Positions 2,860 through 62,862 of a stretch of 64,000 nucleotides of DNA are shown piece after piece. Position 1 is the stretch's first letter. Every line of letters starts with the position of its first letter. The position numbers and the translations under genes were made by a program. The notes below the pieces were generated by a model. It saw only the letters and a list, made by a program, of their open reading frames with translations, was not told where the DNA came from and searched no databases. The DNA comes from Phosphitispora fastidiosa (GTDB lineage: Bacteria > Bacillota > Thermincolia > Thermincolales > UBA2595), in NCBI RefSeq assembly GCF_019008365.1, contig NZ_JAHHUL010000001.1, positions 1 to 64,000 of the forward strand, written 5' to 3'.

Positions 2860-3385
2860 AAACCGCGCCAGCCGGTGGGGCGGGAAAGTTCATTTAGCTC
2901 CAATGCGATAGTACGCCAAGCAAAGCTTGGTACTGCCCATATCGAGTGTTGCGCCGAAACTGGTAACAGCTAGGTGAAGTGTACACAGAGAACCATGCAG
3001 GCCGTAGGGAGGCCGTACTCCTGAAGCACATTCAGCCCCGTCAATGGGTGCCTGGAGGGTCTGTCGGGGTCTAAGCACGCGGAGGCAGACTGATGACTTA
3101 CAGGGAGTCGGATTAACCCATATTACTCTGAGTGCGGGAAAGCCGTCCACATGGGGAAGGGGTTAACAGGAATATGCAGCCAGCAAAGGAAACATTAACC
3201 GGGCATGAAGGACTGGAGAAATTAATGCAAACCTCACTGCGGGGAATAGCATAGAAGGCAGAACAATTTCATTTAGTTTTGTCTAATCCTCAAGGCCGGG
3301 AATCTGTGCGGGGGGCGTCGGGCAACCGGCGTTCCTACCGTGACGATGAAATATTCAACCTGATTTGGGGTCAAAAAAAAGATGG
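2853..3385 (+). repeat. Group II intron fragment B (no ORF)
   Basis: The longest of the three copies. It shares with fragment C the leader from GAGCAAAAA through GCAAAGCTTGGTACTGCC, then the TGTTGCGCCGAAACTGG block, the AGGCAGACTGATGACTTA block, GTCGGATTAACCCATA and GGGAAAGCCGTCCACAT. Its tail (3330-3350) repeats the GGCGTTCCTACCGTGACG end of fragment A. The stretch just before a group II intron ORF normally looks like this, but no reverse transcriptase follows; a toxin-antitoxin pair on the other strand follows instead. Confidence 0.65.
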
Positions 3386-6917: not shown

Positions 6918-6941
6918 AGTCCCAAACAAATTAAAGGAAAA

Positions 6942-6958
6942 TGTCGAAATGTGTCGAA
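6942..6958 (+). promoter_or_regulatory. Tandem Spo0A boxes upstream of the cytochrome operon
   Basis: Two perfect TGTCGAA heptamers at 6942-6948 and 6952-6958, exactly 10 bp apart and in the same orientation, as expected for a Spo0A dimer on one face of the helix. They lie about 45 nt upstream of the membrane spermidine-synthase-like gene. An almost identical arrangement lies at 10010-10026. Binding is inferred from the known 0A box consensus. Confidence 0.65.
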
Positions 6959-7003
6959 AGAAGGTATTTGTGAATCTTAACAACATTATGTAAGGTGTGG
7001 AAA

Positions 7004-8521
7004 ATGCAGGCGAAAAATAAGTCCGTAACAAAAAAGCAAGCTCAGTTTTTGGGTGTTCAGGGGATATGGGTCTTATACTTTACCTCAATAATATGCGGGG
7101 CCATACTGATGGCTTTGGAAATTGTAGGCGGCCGGCTATTGTCGCCGTTTTTCGGAGGTTCTGTCTATGTCTGGGGAAGTATAATTTTCGTTTTTCTGAC
7201 CGCGCTCAGCACTGGCTACTATGCCGGTGGGATTGCATCTGATAAAAAACCAAGTCTGTCTGTGCTGGCAGGCTTTATCGCTTTGGCTGGCATACTGATT
7301 CTGTTTATTCCCCCCCTGGTAGTTCCCTTTGTTAAATTTACTTTTGCTATTGGATTGGGTAATTACGGAACTCTGGTTGTAGCCATGCTGTTATTTTTTT
7401 TACCCAGTGTAGGATTGGGAATGGTGTCACCATACATAGTTAAGCTGGGGATAAAAGAATCAAGCCGGCTGGGAAATCTGGTGGGCAAGTTTTATGCAGT
7501 TTCAACTGTAGGGAGTATTATCGGTACCCTGGCAACCACATTTGTGCTGATCCCATGGTTTGGCATAAGGCATATTATCTTTGCTTTGGGTATTATCCTG
7601 GTTATCTTGGCAGCAGCTATTTTAATAATGAACAAAAGGCTGCCACAGACTGTCCTGGTCATCTGTCTGCTGGTATTATCACTTTTTGCAGTAACAACAG
7701 CTAACTCCAAAGAAAGCAGCCAAGGCGGAAAATTGATATACCAAAAAGAGACTGCTTACAATAATATCAGGGTAGAGGACTACTACAACCGTCGATACCT
7801 CTTGTTTAATGATACCGAACAGAGTGTTACCGATAAAAATCAGCCAAATGTACATATTTGGCCATATACCGAGCTGATGGATAATGCCGCCGGGTACTAC
7901 CGGCCAGATGCCACTGATATGCTGGTTATCGGAATAGGAGGCGGTACGGTTATCAACAGTATGCTGACGAAAAACCCCGATCTCTTTGTTGACGCTGTTG
8001 ACATCGACGCTGAGGTTATTAAAGTGGCATATGAATACTTTAACATGCCTGACAGTCCCAAGCTCCAGGCAACAGCCGGTGATGGCAGAGTCTTCCTGAG
8101 AGATAAAAAGAACCGGTATGATGTAATTATGGTTGATGCATATAACCGCACTAGCATTCCCTCACACCTGACCACCAGAGAATTTTTTACTGAGATGGCA
8201 AGCGCTTTGAACCCCGGTGGTATCATAATCTTTAATATTGTCAGCAGCATTGAAGGCGATTATAGCACGTTCTTTAAGAGCTTATTGCTTACTTCGCAAC
8301 AGGTCTTCCCTGAATACCGTCTATTTCAGGCAGAAACAGAAGACCCGTCTGATTTGGATAATTTAATCCTGATTGCCTCAAGGGATAAACTGGGTACGCC
8401 AGACCGACTTGCAAACCGGCCCGAATACAAGGGAAATATCGATCTCAGTAAAGCCATAGTGCTGACAGATGATTATGCTCCTGTAGACACTCTGGCATTA
8501 AAAATTATGTCACTTTACTAA
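7004..8521 (+). CDS. Membrane spermidine synthase-like protein
   Basis: About 505 residues. I chose the ATG at 7004 because GTAAGG lies 7-10 nt before it; a GTG at 6995 is in frame but sits inside that site. The N-terminal about 220 residues hold seven or so membrane segments (ILMALEIVGGRLLSPFFGGS is typical of fused MFS/spermidine-synthase proteins). The C-terminal half is a Rossmann methyltransferase-like fold with VIGIGGG, DAVDIDAEVI, AGDGRVFLR and MVDAYNRTSIPSHLTT. True aminopropyltransferase activity is unproven for this fused class; such genes often sit beside cytochrome c clusters. It precedes the 15-haem cytochrome by 22 nt, so the two form one operon. Confidence 0.8.
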   Translation: MQAKNKSVTKKQAQFLGVQGIWVLYFTSIICGAILMALEIVGGRLLSPFFGGSVYVWGSIIFVFLTALSTGYYAGGIASDKKPSLSVLAGFIALAGILILFIPPLVVPFVKFTFAIGLGNYGTLVVAMLLFFLPSVGLGMVSPYIVKLGIKESSRLGNLVGKFYAVSTVGSIIGTLATTFVLIPWFGIRHIIFALGIILVILAAAILIMNKRLPQTVLVICLLVLSLFAVTTANSKESSQGGKLIYQKETAYNNIRVEDYYNRRYLLFNDTEQSVTDKNQPNVHIWPYTELMDNAAGYYRPDATDMLVIGIGGGTVINSMLTKNPDLFVDAVDIDAEVIKVAYEYFNMPDSPKLQATAGDGRVFLRDKKNRYDVIMVDAYNRTSIPSHLTTREFFTEMASALNPGGIIIFNIVSSIEGDYSTFFKSLLLTSQQVFPEYRLFQAETEDPSDLDNLILIASRDKLGTPDRLANRPEYKGNIDLSKAIVLTDDYAPVDTLALKIMSLY

Positions 8522-8543
8522 ACATGTACCAGTGAGGTTGAAA

Positions 8544-9914
8544 ATGACAGGCATTTGGCCAAAAATAAAAAAAATAAAATTAAAGTCACGTACCAAGCTA
8601 CTAATGGCATTAGTACTATGCATCACGGTTATTCCCTGGTTTTCATTTGAGGCTCTTGAATACATAGAGCAGCCCGGATTTTGCAGCAAGTGCCATTCTA
8701 TGACTCCCCATTTCAGTTCATGGGCTAAGTCAGGCCACAGTCAGGTCAATTGCTACAATTGTCATGGAGACACGAAACTGAAGCTGCAGATGGATGATGC
8801 CGCTAAGGTTGGAGAGAAATATACTCTTTCCAGGGATATACTCACAACCAACAAGGCAGTCAAAGTTTTTGGTAAAATCATTGACTGGATGTCTGGGTAT
8901 GCTGAGGTTATTTCCGATTATACAGACAAAAAAAATAAGCAGCTAACGTTTCTTTTTGACATGTATACAGATACTTCTGACGATGTCAACAAACAGCGTT
9001 CCTGGAATAGCTGTGTCAATTGCCACGAGGGTTTCCTTTTTTCTCGTACGGGAAATGACCATTACGGCCATTTTAAGCACACTGGAAGTGGAGTGATTAC
9101 CTGCCGGCAGTGTCACGGAAACCTGGTGCATGAACAGAAGGCTGAGATTAGCAGGGAAGCATGTCTTAACTGCCATGACAAAGAAATTCCCAAACCTCCG
9201 TCACACGTCCCGGATTCTTTTAAATTAAGTCACGGCAAGGATTACCTGACAGAAAAGAATTGCAGCCTGTGTCATGTTCAGGGTATTCAGGAACCCATTT
9301 GTCAGGATTGTCACAAATTAGCGATGCCACATCCGGAAAACTACCGGGAAGGCCATATACCCGCCATAGCAGAGACCGGGGTGAGAACATGTTTTAACTG
9401 TCATCAGGAGGATTTTGATGAGCAACCGTCAGAATCGGCACAACCGTCCGCTTCCAACCCTTTGGACAGAGCATCGTGCAGTGTTTGTCACGGGGTCAAG
9501 ATGCCCCATACAGGTGATGTGTTAAAAGAGCATACAGGGCTGGCAAAAAGGTCCGGGCTGAAGAGTTGTTCATACTGCCATCAAACATCTCCGGGGCAAA
9601 AAGACATGGCTGTAGCCTGTACAGACTGCCACGGGATGGAAGTTCCGCATCCACAGGGCTTTCAATATAAGCATAAGGAGGTGGTTGCGGCAAAAGGTCA
9701 GGGTGTGTGCAGCTACTGTCACTCTCCAAAGAACCCGATTAATCCGGGAGCGCCATGGGCAAGTCCGAAATTCTGTCTGGACTGCCATATGAAGAATAAG
9801 CCTCATGACCCCGGCTTTAAAGCTGAACACCAGTTGGGGTTCTATGACCGCAACAGGTGCAGTACATGTCATCCGACGGAGAATCACTGTTATGAATGTC
9901 ATTTTGGGGAGTGA
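8544..9914 (+). CDS. Membrane-anchored 15-haem cytochrome c, NapC/NirT-type N-terminus
   Basis: About 456 residues with 15 CXXCH motifs (CSKCH, CYNCH, CVNCH, CRQCH, CLNCH, CSLCH, CQDCH, CFNCH, CSVCH, CSYCH, CTDCH, CSYCH, CLDCH, CSTCH, CYECH). One N-terminal membrane anchor (LLMALVLCITVIPWF) precedes a NapC/NirT-like start (GFCSKCHSMTPHF and a second haem site). NapC-type proteins take electrons from menaquinol; the many extra haems would carry them across the envelope. The ATG at 8544 follows GTGAGG by 6 nt; the GTG at 8532 is in frame but is itself part of that site. It is in one operon with the upstream membrane protein. The final substrate is unknown. Confidence 0.88.
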   Translation: MTGIWPKIKKIKLKSRTKLLMALVLCITVIPWFSFEALEYIEQPGFCSKCHSMTPHFSSWAKSGHSQVNCYNCHGDTKLKLQMDDAAKVGEKYTLSRDILTTNKAVKVFGKIIDWMSGYAEVISDYTDKKNKQLTFLFDMYTDTSDDVNKQRSWNSCVNCHEGFLFSRTGNDHYGHFKHTGSGVITCRQCHGNLVHEQKAEISREACLNCHDKEIPKPPSHVPDSFKLSHGKDYLTEKNCSLCHVQGIQEPICQDCHKLAMPHPENYREGHIPAIAETGVRTCFNCHQEDFDEQPSESAQPSASNPLDRASCSVCHGVKMPHTGDVLKEHTGLAKRSGLKSCSYCHQTSPGQKDMAVACTDCHGMEVPHPQGFQYKHKEVVAAKGQGVCSYCHSPKNPINPGAPWASPKFCLDCHMKNKPHDPGFKAEHQLGFYDRNRCSTCHPTENHCYECHFGE

Positions 9915-10009
9915 TGAAAGTTATAAAATATAGAAGAAGTTCAGAAAAACATGGAGATTAAATAAATTACTACACATTGTAGAAATAATTGGTTTTAGAA
10001 GAAGGAAAA

Positions 10010-10026
10010 TGTCGAAAGATGTCGAA
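10010..10026 (+). promoter_or_regulatory. Second tandem Spo0A box pair
   Basis: TGTCGAA at 10010-10016 and 10020-10026, again perfect and 10 bp apart, within a context (GGAAAATGTCGAAA) shared with the pair at 6942. It lies about 140 nt upstream of the TPR gene, so this second unit probably has its own promoter. The 250 bases between 9915 and 10167 contain no gene. Confidence 0.65.
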
Positions 10027-10167
10027 ATGGTGTTATGTAAAAGACATGGCAGAGACAAAATGGCAACAAATATTAGTTAGCGTATATTGCTGCAAAGCTT
10101 AGAAAAACGCGGTTGTGTCTGAGGTAGTGAACTATTGAACAATTAGTTTATTTAGGAGTGATAATAG

Positions 10168-46878: not shown

Positions 46879-47031
46879 GTTTCAAACCCGTGAAGATATG
46901 AACAAAAAGTAAACAAACCTTTAACAGGCTGTAAAATGTACCTATGTCCGGATGGCGACGGTATTAAATGGGCAAAACCTTTCGTATTCATAATTAAGAA
47001 AATCCTATATCAAAGAAAACCCAATAAAAAT

Positions 47032-47165
47032 CTGCAGGGGCAAACCCGGTGAAAGCCGGGGACGCAAAGCTATGGGTCTAAGGCATTTTGCCACGACTGC
47101 CAGGCTGCCAGAGAACGTTTCAAATGCTGCCCTTCAGAGAAGAGATTTACAGTGAAGGGTTTTCT
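47032..47165 (+). ncRNA. Cyclic di-GMP-I (GEMM-I) riboswitch with terminator
   Basis: Aptamer at about 47032-47112 with GGGGCAAACCCGGTGAAAGC, GGGGACGCAAAGCTA, TGGGTCTAAGGCA and a P3 closing GCCAGGCTGCCAGA, an almost textbook GEMM-I. The terminator CCCTTCA (47130-47136) with TGAAGGG (47153-47159) and TTTTCTG follows. It controls the SLH-domain gene 62 nt further on. The rest of 46879-47031 holds no gene. Confidence 0.92.
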
Positions 47166-59812: not shown

Positions 59813-59860
59813 ATTATGACCAAAATTCGACGTTTTCTCCAAAGGATAAATATCTGCATA

Positions 59861-59867
59861 TGTCGAA
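59861..59867 (+). promoter_or_regulatory. Spo0A-type box upstream of the CheB-CheR gene
   Basis: TGTCGAA, perfect, 35 nt before the start. A degenerate inverse copy (TTCGACG) lies at 59826-59832. Confidence 0.4.
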
Positions 59868-59901: not shown

Positions 59902-62862
59902 TTGAGTCCAATCGAACGAAGCAGGAATGAGGAGCTGAAGAGTTTGGGGAGCAGAAAAACAATTTGCCCGATAGTTGGTGTTGGTGCTTCGGCCGGAGGT
60001 TTGGAATCTTTTTCGAGATTATTAAGAAATCTGCCTGTTGATACCGGTATGGCGTTTGTACTTGTTCAGCACATGGAACCTAAACATAAGAGCATATTGG
60101 CTGACATTCTTTCCAGGACGACCAATATGCCAGTTATCGATGTGAAAAATAAAACTGTGGTAAAACCTGACCATATCTATGTCATTCCAGCAGGAATGGA
60201 CGCGACTGTTTTAAAAGGGACCCTTTACCTTGTGCCACGGACGGAAAAAGTTTCGCAGTATAAGCCTATTGATACCTTTTTGGAATCACTGGCAAAGAAT
60301 CAAAATGGTACGCCAATTGGGGTGATACTATCGGGAAACGGTACGGACGGTTCCCAGGGATTGAGAGCTATAAAAACTGTTGGCGGCATAACCTTTGCCC
60401 AAACTCCAGAATCTTCAAAATACGATGGTATGCCGCAGAGCGCTATCACTTTAGGTGCTGTCGATTTTGTCTTGACGCCTGAAGAAATTGCCGGTAAGCT
60501 GGGGAAAATAGCCTGTTCCGGTGTTTTAAAAAAAATAGAGATAGAAACCGATGAGTTGTTTAATGCTGATGAACTCAACAAGGTATTTATGATGCTGTAT
60601 ACTGTCAGCGGCACAAATTTTGCTGAGTATAAACAACTTACAATACAGCGGCGTATATTGCGGCGCATGGGCTTACACCTGATTCAAAAACTGGATGATT
60701 ATGTCGATTACCTTGGGCAAAACCCAGCGGAAGTTGCCGCCCTGCATCAAGATTTATTAATCAATGTGACTAGTTTTTTTCGGGACTTTGAAGCATTTGA
60801 GACCTTAAAAAAATTGATTTTCCCGAGCATTATGGAAAACAGAACTCCTGATGAAACTGTTCGGGTGTGGGTACCGGGGTGTTCGACAGGAGAAGAGGCT
60901 TATTCAATCGCAATATTCTTAACGGAGTATTTGGAGTCTATAGCCATCAATATCCCTATTCAGATTTTCGCCACAGATGTTAATGAGACTGTCATTGAAA
61001 GGGCCCGGGCAGGCATATACCCGAGAACTATTGAGAACGATGTCTCATCAGAACGTCTCCGACGGTTTTTTGTCAAGGTGGAAGAAGGATACCAGATTAA
61101 TCGAAAAGTCCGTGATATGTGCATTTTCGCCAGGCAGGATATATCCAAGGACCCGCCTTTCTCCCGGTTGGATATGATCAGTTGCCGGAATGTAATGATT
61201 TATTTGGGTCCTGTTTTACAAAAGAAAATGTTTGCCTTTTTTCATTATGCCCTCAAGCCGAAAGGATTTCTCTTTCTTGGAACATCGGAGTCTGTTGGTG
61301 TATATTCAGATTTATTTGATTTGGCAGATAAAAAGTATAAGATTTATTTGAAAAAGTCGGTATCAACTCCGTTAATTTATGATTGTCCATTCAACGAGTA
61401 TGCACCAACTATTGAAAAGATTGAGGTAAAAAGTCAGTATCCTGCAGCTGAACGGCTGATTTCTGATGTGAAAGAACAATCAGACCGTATTGTCATTAAT
61501 AAATTTGCTCCGGCTGGTGTAATTATTAATGAAGCGCTGGAAGTTATTCAGTTTCGCGGACATACCGGGGCTTATCTGGAACATGCTTCCGGAACACCGA
61601 GTCTGAACCTTTTAAAAATGGCCCGTGACGGCTTGCTGCTTGGGCTTCGAGCTGCTGTTAACCAGGCCAAAAAGGAAAATCGTCCGTTCACAAAGGAAGG
61701 ATTACACGTTATTTATAATGGCCAATCCAAAATTGTAAGTGTTCATGTAATTCCTATCGAGGAATCATCTTACAAAGCACGTTATTTCTTGGTTTTATTT
61801 GAGAACGCTGCTTTGCCAACTTTTTCCAAGGGATGGAATACCCATCCTAATCTGAGAAGAAAAGGACAAATCAAGCAACAGGACGAAAATCGTGAGATTG
61901 TCAGGTTGAAGGAAGAACTTATTGTCAACAAGGAGTATCTTCATTCTGTTATCGATCAGCATGAGTCTGCAAATGAGGCACTGCGGGCTGCAAACGAGGA
62001 AATACAGTCAAGCAACGAAGAACTGCAGAGTATGAATGAAGAACTGGAGACTGCCAAAGAAGAGCTCCAATCTATCAATGAAGAGTTGATGACGTTAAAT
62101 GACGAATTACATCACCGCAACCAGGAATTAAACGACATCAACAGCGATGTACAAAACCTGTTCCGCTGTATCGATATCCCCGTCGTTATACTCACTGGTG
62201 CTCTCTGCATACGTCGTTTCAATTACCCGGCGGAAAAGCTGTTGAACCTGATTGCTACCGATGTCGGCCGCCCCATCAGTAATATTAATCCCAATGTTAA
62301 TATCCCTGATTTAGAGCAAGAAATCCTTGAAGTTATTGATAAATTTATCTCTAAAGAAAAAGAAGTGCAGGATAAGTGGGGCTTCTGGTATTCCATGCAA
62401 ATACGGCCCTACAAAACCGCAGAAAACAAGATAAACGGGGTAGTACTGACATTTGTTGATATTGATGCTTTAAAAAACAGCCTGACGTTATCCCAGGAAG
62501 CCTGTGAATACGCTGAAGCAATTGTGGAGACCGTGAGAGAACCGCTCCTGGTCCTGGACGCGAATCTGCATCTCACATCAGCCAACATGGCTTTTTATCA
62601 TACATTTCGGGTTACACCGGAGGAAACCCGAAATCAGCTTATTTTTGATATGGGAAACGGTCAGTGGAATATTCCCCGGCTGCGAGAACTCTTAACGGAT
62701 ATTCTCTGCAACAATACCATTTTCACGGATTTTAAAGTCGAATATGATTTTCCAAATATCGGTCGCAGGACAATGCTGGTCAATGCCCGTCCGATCATTA
62801 CTTTAAAAACCCGGGTGAAGTTGATCCTGATGGCCATTGAAGACATTACTGATGGGAAATAG
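59902..62862 (+). CDS. CheB-CheR-PAS hybrid signalling protein
   Basis: 986 residues from a TTG; a TTG at 59944 behind GAGGAG is an equally good start. CheB-type methylesterase at about 20-205 (GVGASAGG with the Ser, VQHMEP with the His, GNGTDGSQGL with the Asp), without a receiver domain. CheR methyltransferase at about 215-490 (VWVPGCSTGEEAYSIAIFL, SCRNVMIYLGPVLQ, LFLGTSESVG). A long Glu-rich coiled coil (about 680-755) and two PAS-like domains (about 750-985) follow. No kinase domain, but the next gene is a PAS kinase 25 nt away. The target is unknown. Confidence 0.9.
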   Translation: MSPIERSRNEELKSLGSRKTICPIVGVGASAGGLESFSRLLRNLPVDTGMAFVLVQHMEPKHKSILADILSRTTNMPVIDVKNKTVVKPDHIYVIPAGMDATVLKGTLYLVPRTEKVSQYKPIDTFLESLAKNQNGTPIGVILSGNGTDGSQGLRAIKTVGGITFAQTPESSKYDGMPQSAITLGAVDFVLTPEEIAGKLGKIACSGVLKKIEIETDELFNADELNKVFMMLYTVSGTNFAEYKQLTIQRRILRRMGLHLIQKLDDYVDYLGQNPAEVAALHQDLLINVTSFFRDFEAFETLKKLIFPSIMENRTPDETVRVWVPGCSTGEEAYSIAIFLTEYLESIAINIPIQIFATDVNETVIERARAGIYPRTIENDVSSERLRRFFVKVEEGYQINRKVRDMCIFARQDISKDPPFSRLDMISCRNVMIYLGPVLQKKMFAFFHYALKPKGFLFLGTSESVGVYSDLFDLADKKYKIYLKKSVSTPLIYDCPFNEYAPTIEKIEVKSQYPAAERLISDVKEQSDRIVINKFAPAGVIINEALEVIQFRGHTGAYLEHASGTPSLNLLKMARDGLLLGLRAAVNQAKKENRPFTKEGLHVIYNGQSKIVSVHVIPIEESSYKARYFLVLFENAALPTFSKGWNTHPNLRRKGQIKQQDENREIVRLKEELIVNKEYLHSVIDQHESANEALRAANEEIQSSNEELQSMNEELETAKEELQSINEELMTLNDELHHRNQELNDINSDVQNLFRCIDIPVVILTGALCIRRFNYPAEKLLNLIATDVGRPISNINPNVNIPDLEQEILEVIDKFISKEKEVQDKWGFWYSMQIRPYKTAENKINGVVLTFVDIDALKNSLTLSQEACEYAEAIVETVREPLLVLDANLHLTSANMAFYHTFRVTPEETRNQLIFDMGNGQWNIPRLRELLTDILCNNTIFTDFKVEYDFPNIGRRTMLVNARPIITLKTRVKLILMAIEDITDGK

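Follow-up and report, generated by a model that had tools for sequence, protein, structure and literature searches.

Two gene units for multihaem cytochromes are each preceded, in the window (the whole stretch of 64,000 nucleotides that was analysed), by a pair of TGTCGAA words, and the question raised by this locus is which regulator reads them. The original prediction assigned this role to Spo0A, which was proposed to switch extracellular electron transfer at entry into sporulation or stationary phase. Our analysis points to a different primary reader: each site is most likely a sigmaH-dependent promoter, in which AGGAAAA would be the -35 element and TGTCGAAA, which includes the second TGTCGAA word, the -10 element.

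Paired TGTCGAA words upstream of multihaem cytochrome units

Both pairs described in the original prediction, four perfect words in all, are present on the + strand. A word search of the window located TGTCGAAATGTGTCGAA at 6942-6958 (words at 6942-6948 and 6952-6958) and TGTCGAAAGATGTCGAA at 10010-10026 (words at 10010-10016 and 10020-10026). In the head-to-tail dimer arrangement of Spo0A, the words have the same orientation and are 10 bp apart, and this layout of a tandem 0A site is found in both pairs, which read TGTCGAA-N3-TGTCGAA. The neighbouring genes are likewise those that had been described (a membrane protein/15-haem unit and a TPR/NHL/7-haem unit), with the membrane protein now recognized as spermine/spermidine-synthase-like (PF01564). 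Unit 1 thus comprises the synthase-like protein and the 15-haem cytochrome, and unit 2 comprises the TPR protein, the NHL protein and two 7-haem cytochromes (Table 1). Another cytochrome cluster, at G000:C6:106024-126964 (L222, L223; G000 being the genome that holds the window), includes a second pair of TPR/NHL-like type, along with proteins predicted to carry 34 and 73 CxxCH motifs.

Table 1. Predicted promoter elements and downstream genes at the two sites.
Feature	Position	Strand	Remarks
Predicted sigmaH -35, AGGAAAA	6935..6941	+	context AAAGGAAAA (6933-6941) fits RNAGGAWWW
Box 1, TGTCGAA	6942..6948	+	inside sigmaH spacer; possible upstream half of tandem 0A site
Box 2, TGTCGAAA	6952..6959	+	predicted sigmaH -10; also perfect 0A-box word
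Membrane-anchored spermine/spermidine-synthase-like protein, 508 aa	6995..8521	+	PF01564; ATG at 7004 possible
15-haem NapC/NirT- and cytochrome c7-like protein, 460 aa	8532..9914	+	15 CxxCH, Pfam
Predicted sigmaH -35, AGGAAAA	10003..10009	+	context GAAGGAAAA (10001-10009) fits RNAGGAWWW
Box 1, TGTCGAA	10010..10016	+	inside sigmaH spacer; possible tandem 0A half-site
Box 2, TGTCGAAA	10020..10027	+	predicted sigmaH -10; also perfect 0A-box word
Membrane-anchored TPR protein, 212 aa	10168..10806	+	TTG start
NHL-repeat beta-propeller protein, 356 aa	10828..11898	+	PF01436
7-haem cytochrome, 406 aa	11943..13163	+	7 CxxCH, PF09699
7-haem cytochrome, 410 aa	13300..14532	+	7 CxxCH, PF09699

The expectation that such pairs are unlikely by chance is borne out by the counts. 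The window holds 13 TGTCGAA heptamers (6.1 expected), and from heptamer density 0.0013 perfect pairs are expected at the 10-bp offset in the window (P ~9e-7 for the two present) and 0.018 genome-wide (P ~9e-7 for three). The 4.09-Mb genome has exactly three, with none for the reversed-pattern control. The third lies on another contig (L004), where the downstream gene encodes a 10-haem cytochrome that also has Ig-like domains, and all three perfect pairs of the genome therefore stand upstream of multihaem cytochrome units. Across nine family genomes, G000 included, there are 15 perfect pairs against one in the control. When two mismatches were allowed the excess nearly disappeared (37 pairs versus 31 in the reversed control), so the signal resides only in perfect or near-perfect pairs.

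Among tandem words with at most one mismatch, the 10-bp offset alone is enriched (5 versus a mean of 0.5), and N3 is the spacing in 15 of the 34 family pairs with gaps of N0-30. Grouped by downstream gene, these 15 N3 pairs represent about seven unrelated promoters, mostly of what we take from their sequences to be cytochrome genes, but also of presumed genes for LysM wall proteins and for one M23-peptidase-like protein. The pairs occur in two registers relative to AGGA, and their spacer letters differ between unrelated promoters. Pattern scans at the order and class levels gained only one genome for the family. Inverted pairs, TTCGACA-N4-TGTCGAA, were discarded as a candidate arrangement, as they proved to be one single site counted on both strands. 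Three members of the genus share a wider arrangement, TGTCGAA-N16-TGTCGAA (G000:C12:36462-36491, G004:C6:52902-52931 and G005:C34:90001-90030).

A predicted sigmaH promoter at each pair

The common local context noted in the original prediction is AGGAAAA, which directly precedes each pair. Because of this placement, both sites can be read as AGGA-N17-GAAA, which fits a sigmaH promoter with box 2 as its -10 element. The sigmaH consensus is RNAGGAWWW / RNNGAATWW (PMC8510167), and the Sporomusa SigH motif, AGGA-17/18 nt-GAAT, was found at 322 mapped start sites (PMC12456013). In Bacillus, Clostridioides and Sporomusa, sigmaH (Spo0H/SigH) promoters have in common with both sites an AGGA -35 and a spacing within the 17-18 nt range (PMC12456013, PMC8510167). 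The predicted -10, GTCGAAA, comes close to the RNNGAAT type, agreeing with it at all but the last base: it ends in A, where the consensus has T. The -10 of the spo0A promoter in G000 likewise ends in A. An Rfam scan at the pairs returned neither a riboswitch nor any other element.

The same motif recurs throughout the genome. In about 2.3 Mb of G000, taken as stretches, AGGA starts exactly 17-18 nt upstream of 31 of the 215 TGTCGAA words, compared with about one at each other position, and genome-wide the 24- and 25-nt forms of the motif dominate. In an unbiased count anchored on AGGAATT instead, 22 of 732 such words are followed by GAAT at offset 21, the peak position (versus about 3 at most neighbouring offsets), with TGTC, TGTA, TGGC or TATC in front of the GAAT. 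Of 1255 unit heads, 119 have the motif upstream, against 9 for the reversed control, and among cytochrome units the fraction is about 5/20 versus 9% of the others, a moderate excess resting on small numbers. SigmaH-type promoters also precede spo0A (AGGATTTCTCTATTATCCGTCGAAAA) and spoIIAA (AGGAAAAAGAATCCAGCCTGTAGAAT) in G000, as well as spoVS-like and dnaG-like genes; spo0A was identified by Pfam, and the other three are presumed identities recognized from sequence. The genome encodes SigH itself (TIGR02859, 382 bits), and 9 of 10 class genomes, G000 among them, score above the cut-off of this model. Elsewhere in the window, at 59843-59867, a sigmaH-type site of the form AGGA-N14-TGTCGAAT lies upstream of a CheB/CheR-like gene at 59902.

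Since a sigmaH -10 can share its letters, TGTCGAA alone does not identify a Spo0A box in genomes of this type. If the promoter assignment is correct, sigmaH-RNA polymerase would initiate a few bases downstream of box 2, at about 6966 and 10034, and the synthase/15-haem and TPR/NHL/7-haem units would rise at the transition to stationary phase. That sigmaH raises both cytochrome units in this phase is the most likely interpretation of the promoter sequences.

Conservation in orthologous promoters

Nine orthologous promoters could be compared, consisting of those of the synthase unit in five genomes (two families) and of the TPR unit in four. Box 2 is intact in all nine and AGGA in eight, whereas a perfect box 1 is found in three, and pairwise identity is 1.0 for box 2 against 0.61-0.62 for box 1. 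Ahead of -TGTCGAA, the synthase promoters carry AGGAAAATGTCGAAATG (G000), AGGAAAATGTCGAACAA (G005), AGGGAAAAGTCGTATAC (G004), AGGACTAGGAAGAAAAA (G008) and AGGAAAACATAGAAAAA (G009), and the TPR promoters carry AGGAAAATGTCGAAAGA (G000), AGGAATTTGTTTAATGA (G005), AGGATTTTGTCGATAGA (G004) and AGGAAAATGATAATCTT (G008). In the synthase set the -35 stays AGGA or AGGG in 5/5 and the box 2 heptamer is kept in 5/5, with a perfect box 1 in 2/5; in the TPR set the corresponding values are 4/4 for AGGA, 4/4 for box 2 and 1/4 for box 1, which is perfect in G000 only. Box 1 decays among the orthologs of either window promoter, and G008 and G009 lack it. A sixth synthase ortholog (G002), outside the nine, lacks such a box at the corresponding place. 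The synthase gene of G009 retains the promoter even though no cytochromes lie downstream.

The original prediction had offered the conservation of paired boxes before orthologous operons as a check. When it was applied, a perfect pair preceded only two of five synthase units and one of four TPR units, and only AGGA (or AGGG) with box 2, at a fixed spacing, persisted in every case. Judged from these alignments, the conserved element is most likely a sigmaH promoter rather than the pair of TGTCGAA words. The original interpretation is supported in part: the link to sporulation or stationary phase is upheld, although it would run through a sigmaH promoter and only possibly through Spo0A.

The C14 cytochrome promoter exhibits the other register. 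Here, AGGAAT is followed by a box 1 that starts 18 nt after AGGA and does not vary among eight promoters. The second box is conserved at 0.83 versus 0.46 for the spacer and is lost in G009, and the pair is perfect in six of the eight. Directly after the second box of C14-type pairs, a conserved element resembling GTACTTTTGTAC was observed at L004, L034, L037, L041, L042 and L043, which represent several genera.

Spo0A as a possible second input

A sigmaH promoter leaves box 1 and the exact 10-bp tandem enrichment unexplained. Moreover, TGTC stands unchanged in front of GAA in all the orthologous promoters, a stronger conservation than at the generic sigmaH -10s of this genome, where TGTA, TGGC and TATC also occur, so box 2 may have a reader besides sigmaH. 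Spo0A is present (PF08769, 156 bits), its DNA-binding domain is close to solved structures 1lq1 and 1fc3, and the recognition region SRVERAIRHAIE is unchanged. In G000 a perfect 0A word occurs upstream of spo0A, and another just after a likely sigmaA promoter of abrB, but these are single boxes; no perfect tandem was found in the regions upstream of spo0A, spoIIAA, spoIIGA and abrB.

These features leave room for a composite site, an extension of the sigmaH reading that is compatible with it. Here a sigmaH promoter would be combined with a true tandem 0A site, and a Spo0A~P dimer would occupy both words, one of which doubles as the sigmaH -10; sigmaH would activate the gene, while Spo0A~P would modulate it or shut it off. 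This reading is plausible at somewhat less than even chances. It would account for the 10-bp offset being the only one enriched, for the recurrence of N3 pairs in about seven unrelated promoters and in two registers, and for the conservation of the second box in the C14 cytochrome promoter; the intact Spo0A recognition region and the 0A words at spo0A and abrB agree with it as well. Its weak points are the decay of box 1 in the orthologs of both window promoters and the single boxes, rather than perfect tandems, at spo0A and abrB. We tentatively suggest, with rather more doubt than confidence, that such sites form a sigmaH/Spo0A promoter class in Thermincola-like bacteria, chiefly at multihaem cytochrome and wall-protein genes. 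Binding of a Spo0A dimer to the tandem site is a reasonable proposal, and the tandem may be a lineage-restricted addition that could recruit Spo0A. Box 1 would be dispensable for the promoter itself, but together with box 2 forms a tandem 0A-like site with its halves one helical turn apart, over which a Spo0A~P dimer may bind at the -10 region in some lineages. Our guess is that this would occlude the promoter and shut it off at high Spo0A~P.

Other explanations fare poorly. If Spo0A alone activated or repressed a sigmaA promoter through tandem 0A boxes, this would suit the dimer-like layout of the words and their perfect match to the consensus, and weak -10-like sequences (TATTTG at 6965, TTATGT at 10033) would put the boxes near -35. 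However, AGGA-N17-GAA is conserved and the pair is not, and a sigma70-type scan of the region found no more promoters than in shuffled sequences and none at the expected place, which makes this very unlikely. The poor conservation of box 1 in the window promoters could also mean that the pairs are meaningless products of chance or of a 10-bp slippage duplication. This is highly improbable in view of the genome-wide excess, which falls entirely upstream of multihaem cytochrome units, and of the recurrence of pairs in promoters that are unrelated and differ in their spacer letters. A further reading, that each box acts as the -10 of its own sigmaH promoter and the two promoters overlap at a 10-bp offset, is suggested by L042, where an AGGA is suitably spaced to each of the boxes. 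Yet there is no AGGA 17-18 nt before box 1 in the window, and the exact 10-bp offset is left without a reason, such that this arrangement is extremely unlikely to be the explanation.

Relation to known systems

The words match the TGTCGAA core of the 0A boxes of B. subtilis and C. difficile (PMC3485338) perfectly, and have the orientation and 10-bp spacing of the head-to-tail dimer arrangement, but here one word is also the predicted sigmaH -10 and the other is poorly conserved. Another parallel is the Ps promoter of B. subtilis spo0A, whose sigmaH promoter region is overlapped by the 0A4 box (PMC12090719), whereas in the window the tandem overlaps both the -10 and the spacer. The overlapping box has little effect in B. 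subtilis (PMC12090719), so a Spo0A effect here could be of either sign. The extracellular electron transfer cytochromes of Thermincola are proteins of the same kind, and the part of the paper considered here does not address their regulation (PMC7911101). Our literature search found no paper that links Spo0A or sigH/sigmaH with multihaem cytochromes, and the literature searched contains almost no work on how Gram-positive electroactive bacteria regulate such cytochromes. If sigmaH promoters do precede these units, expression should peak at the transition phase, and this would have consequences for cultivating such organisms on electrodes or iron minerals. If the combined promoter class also exists, extracellular electron transfer would be tied to the sporulation decision, with sigmaH turning it on and Spo0A~P modulating it.

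Other elements in the window

Two c-di-GMP-I riboswitches were identified in the window, one at 22830-22915 (77.6 bits), with small ORFs and feoA/feoB-like genes downstream of it, and the other at 47029-47112 (76.4 bits), which precedes an S-layer-homology-like protein that contains a long stretch of Asp/Glu. The window also has two fragments of group II introns (RF02005), at 1500-1664 and 2908-3079, close to a transposase-like ORF and surrounded by repeated ORFs.
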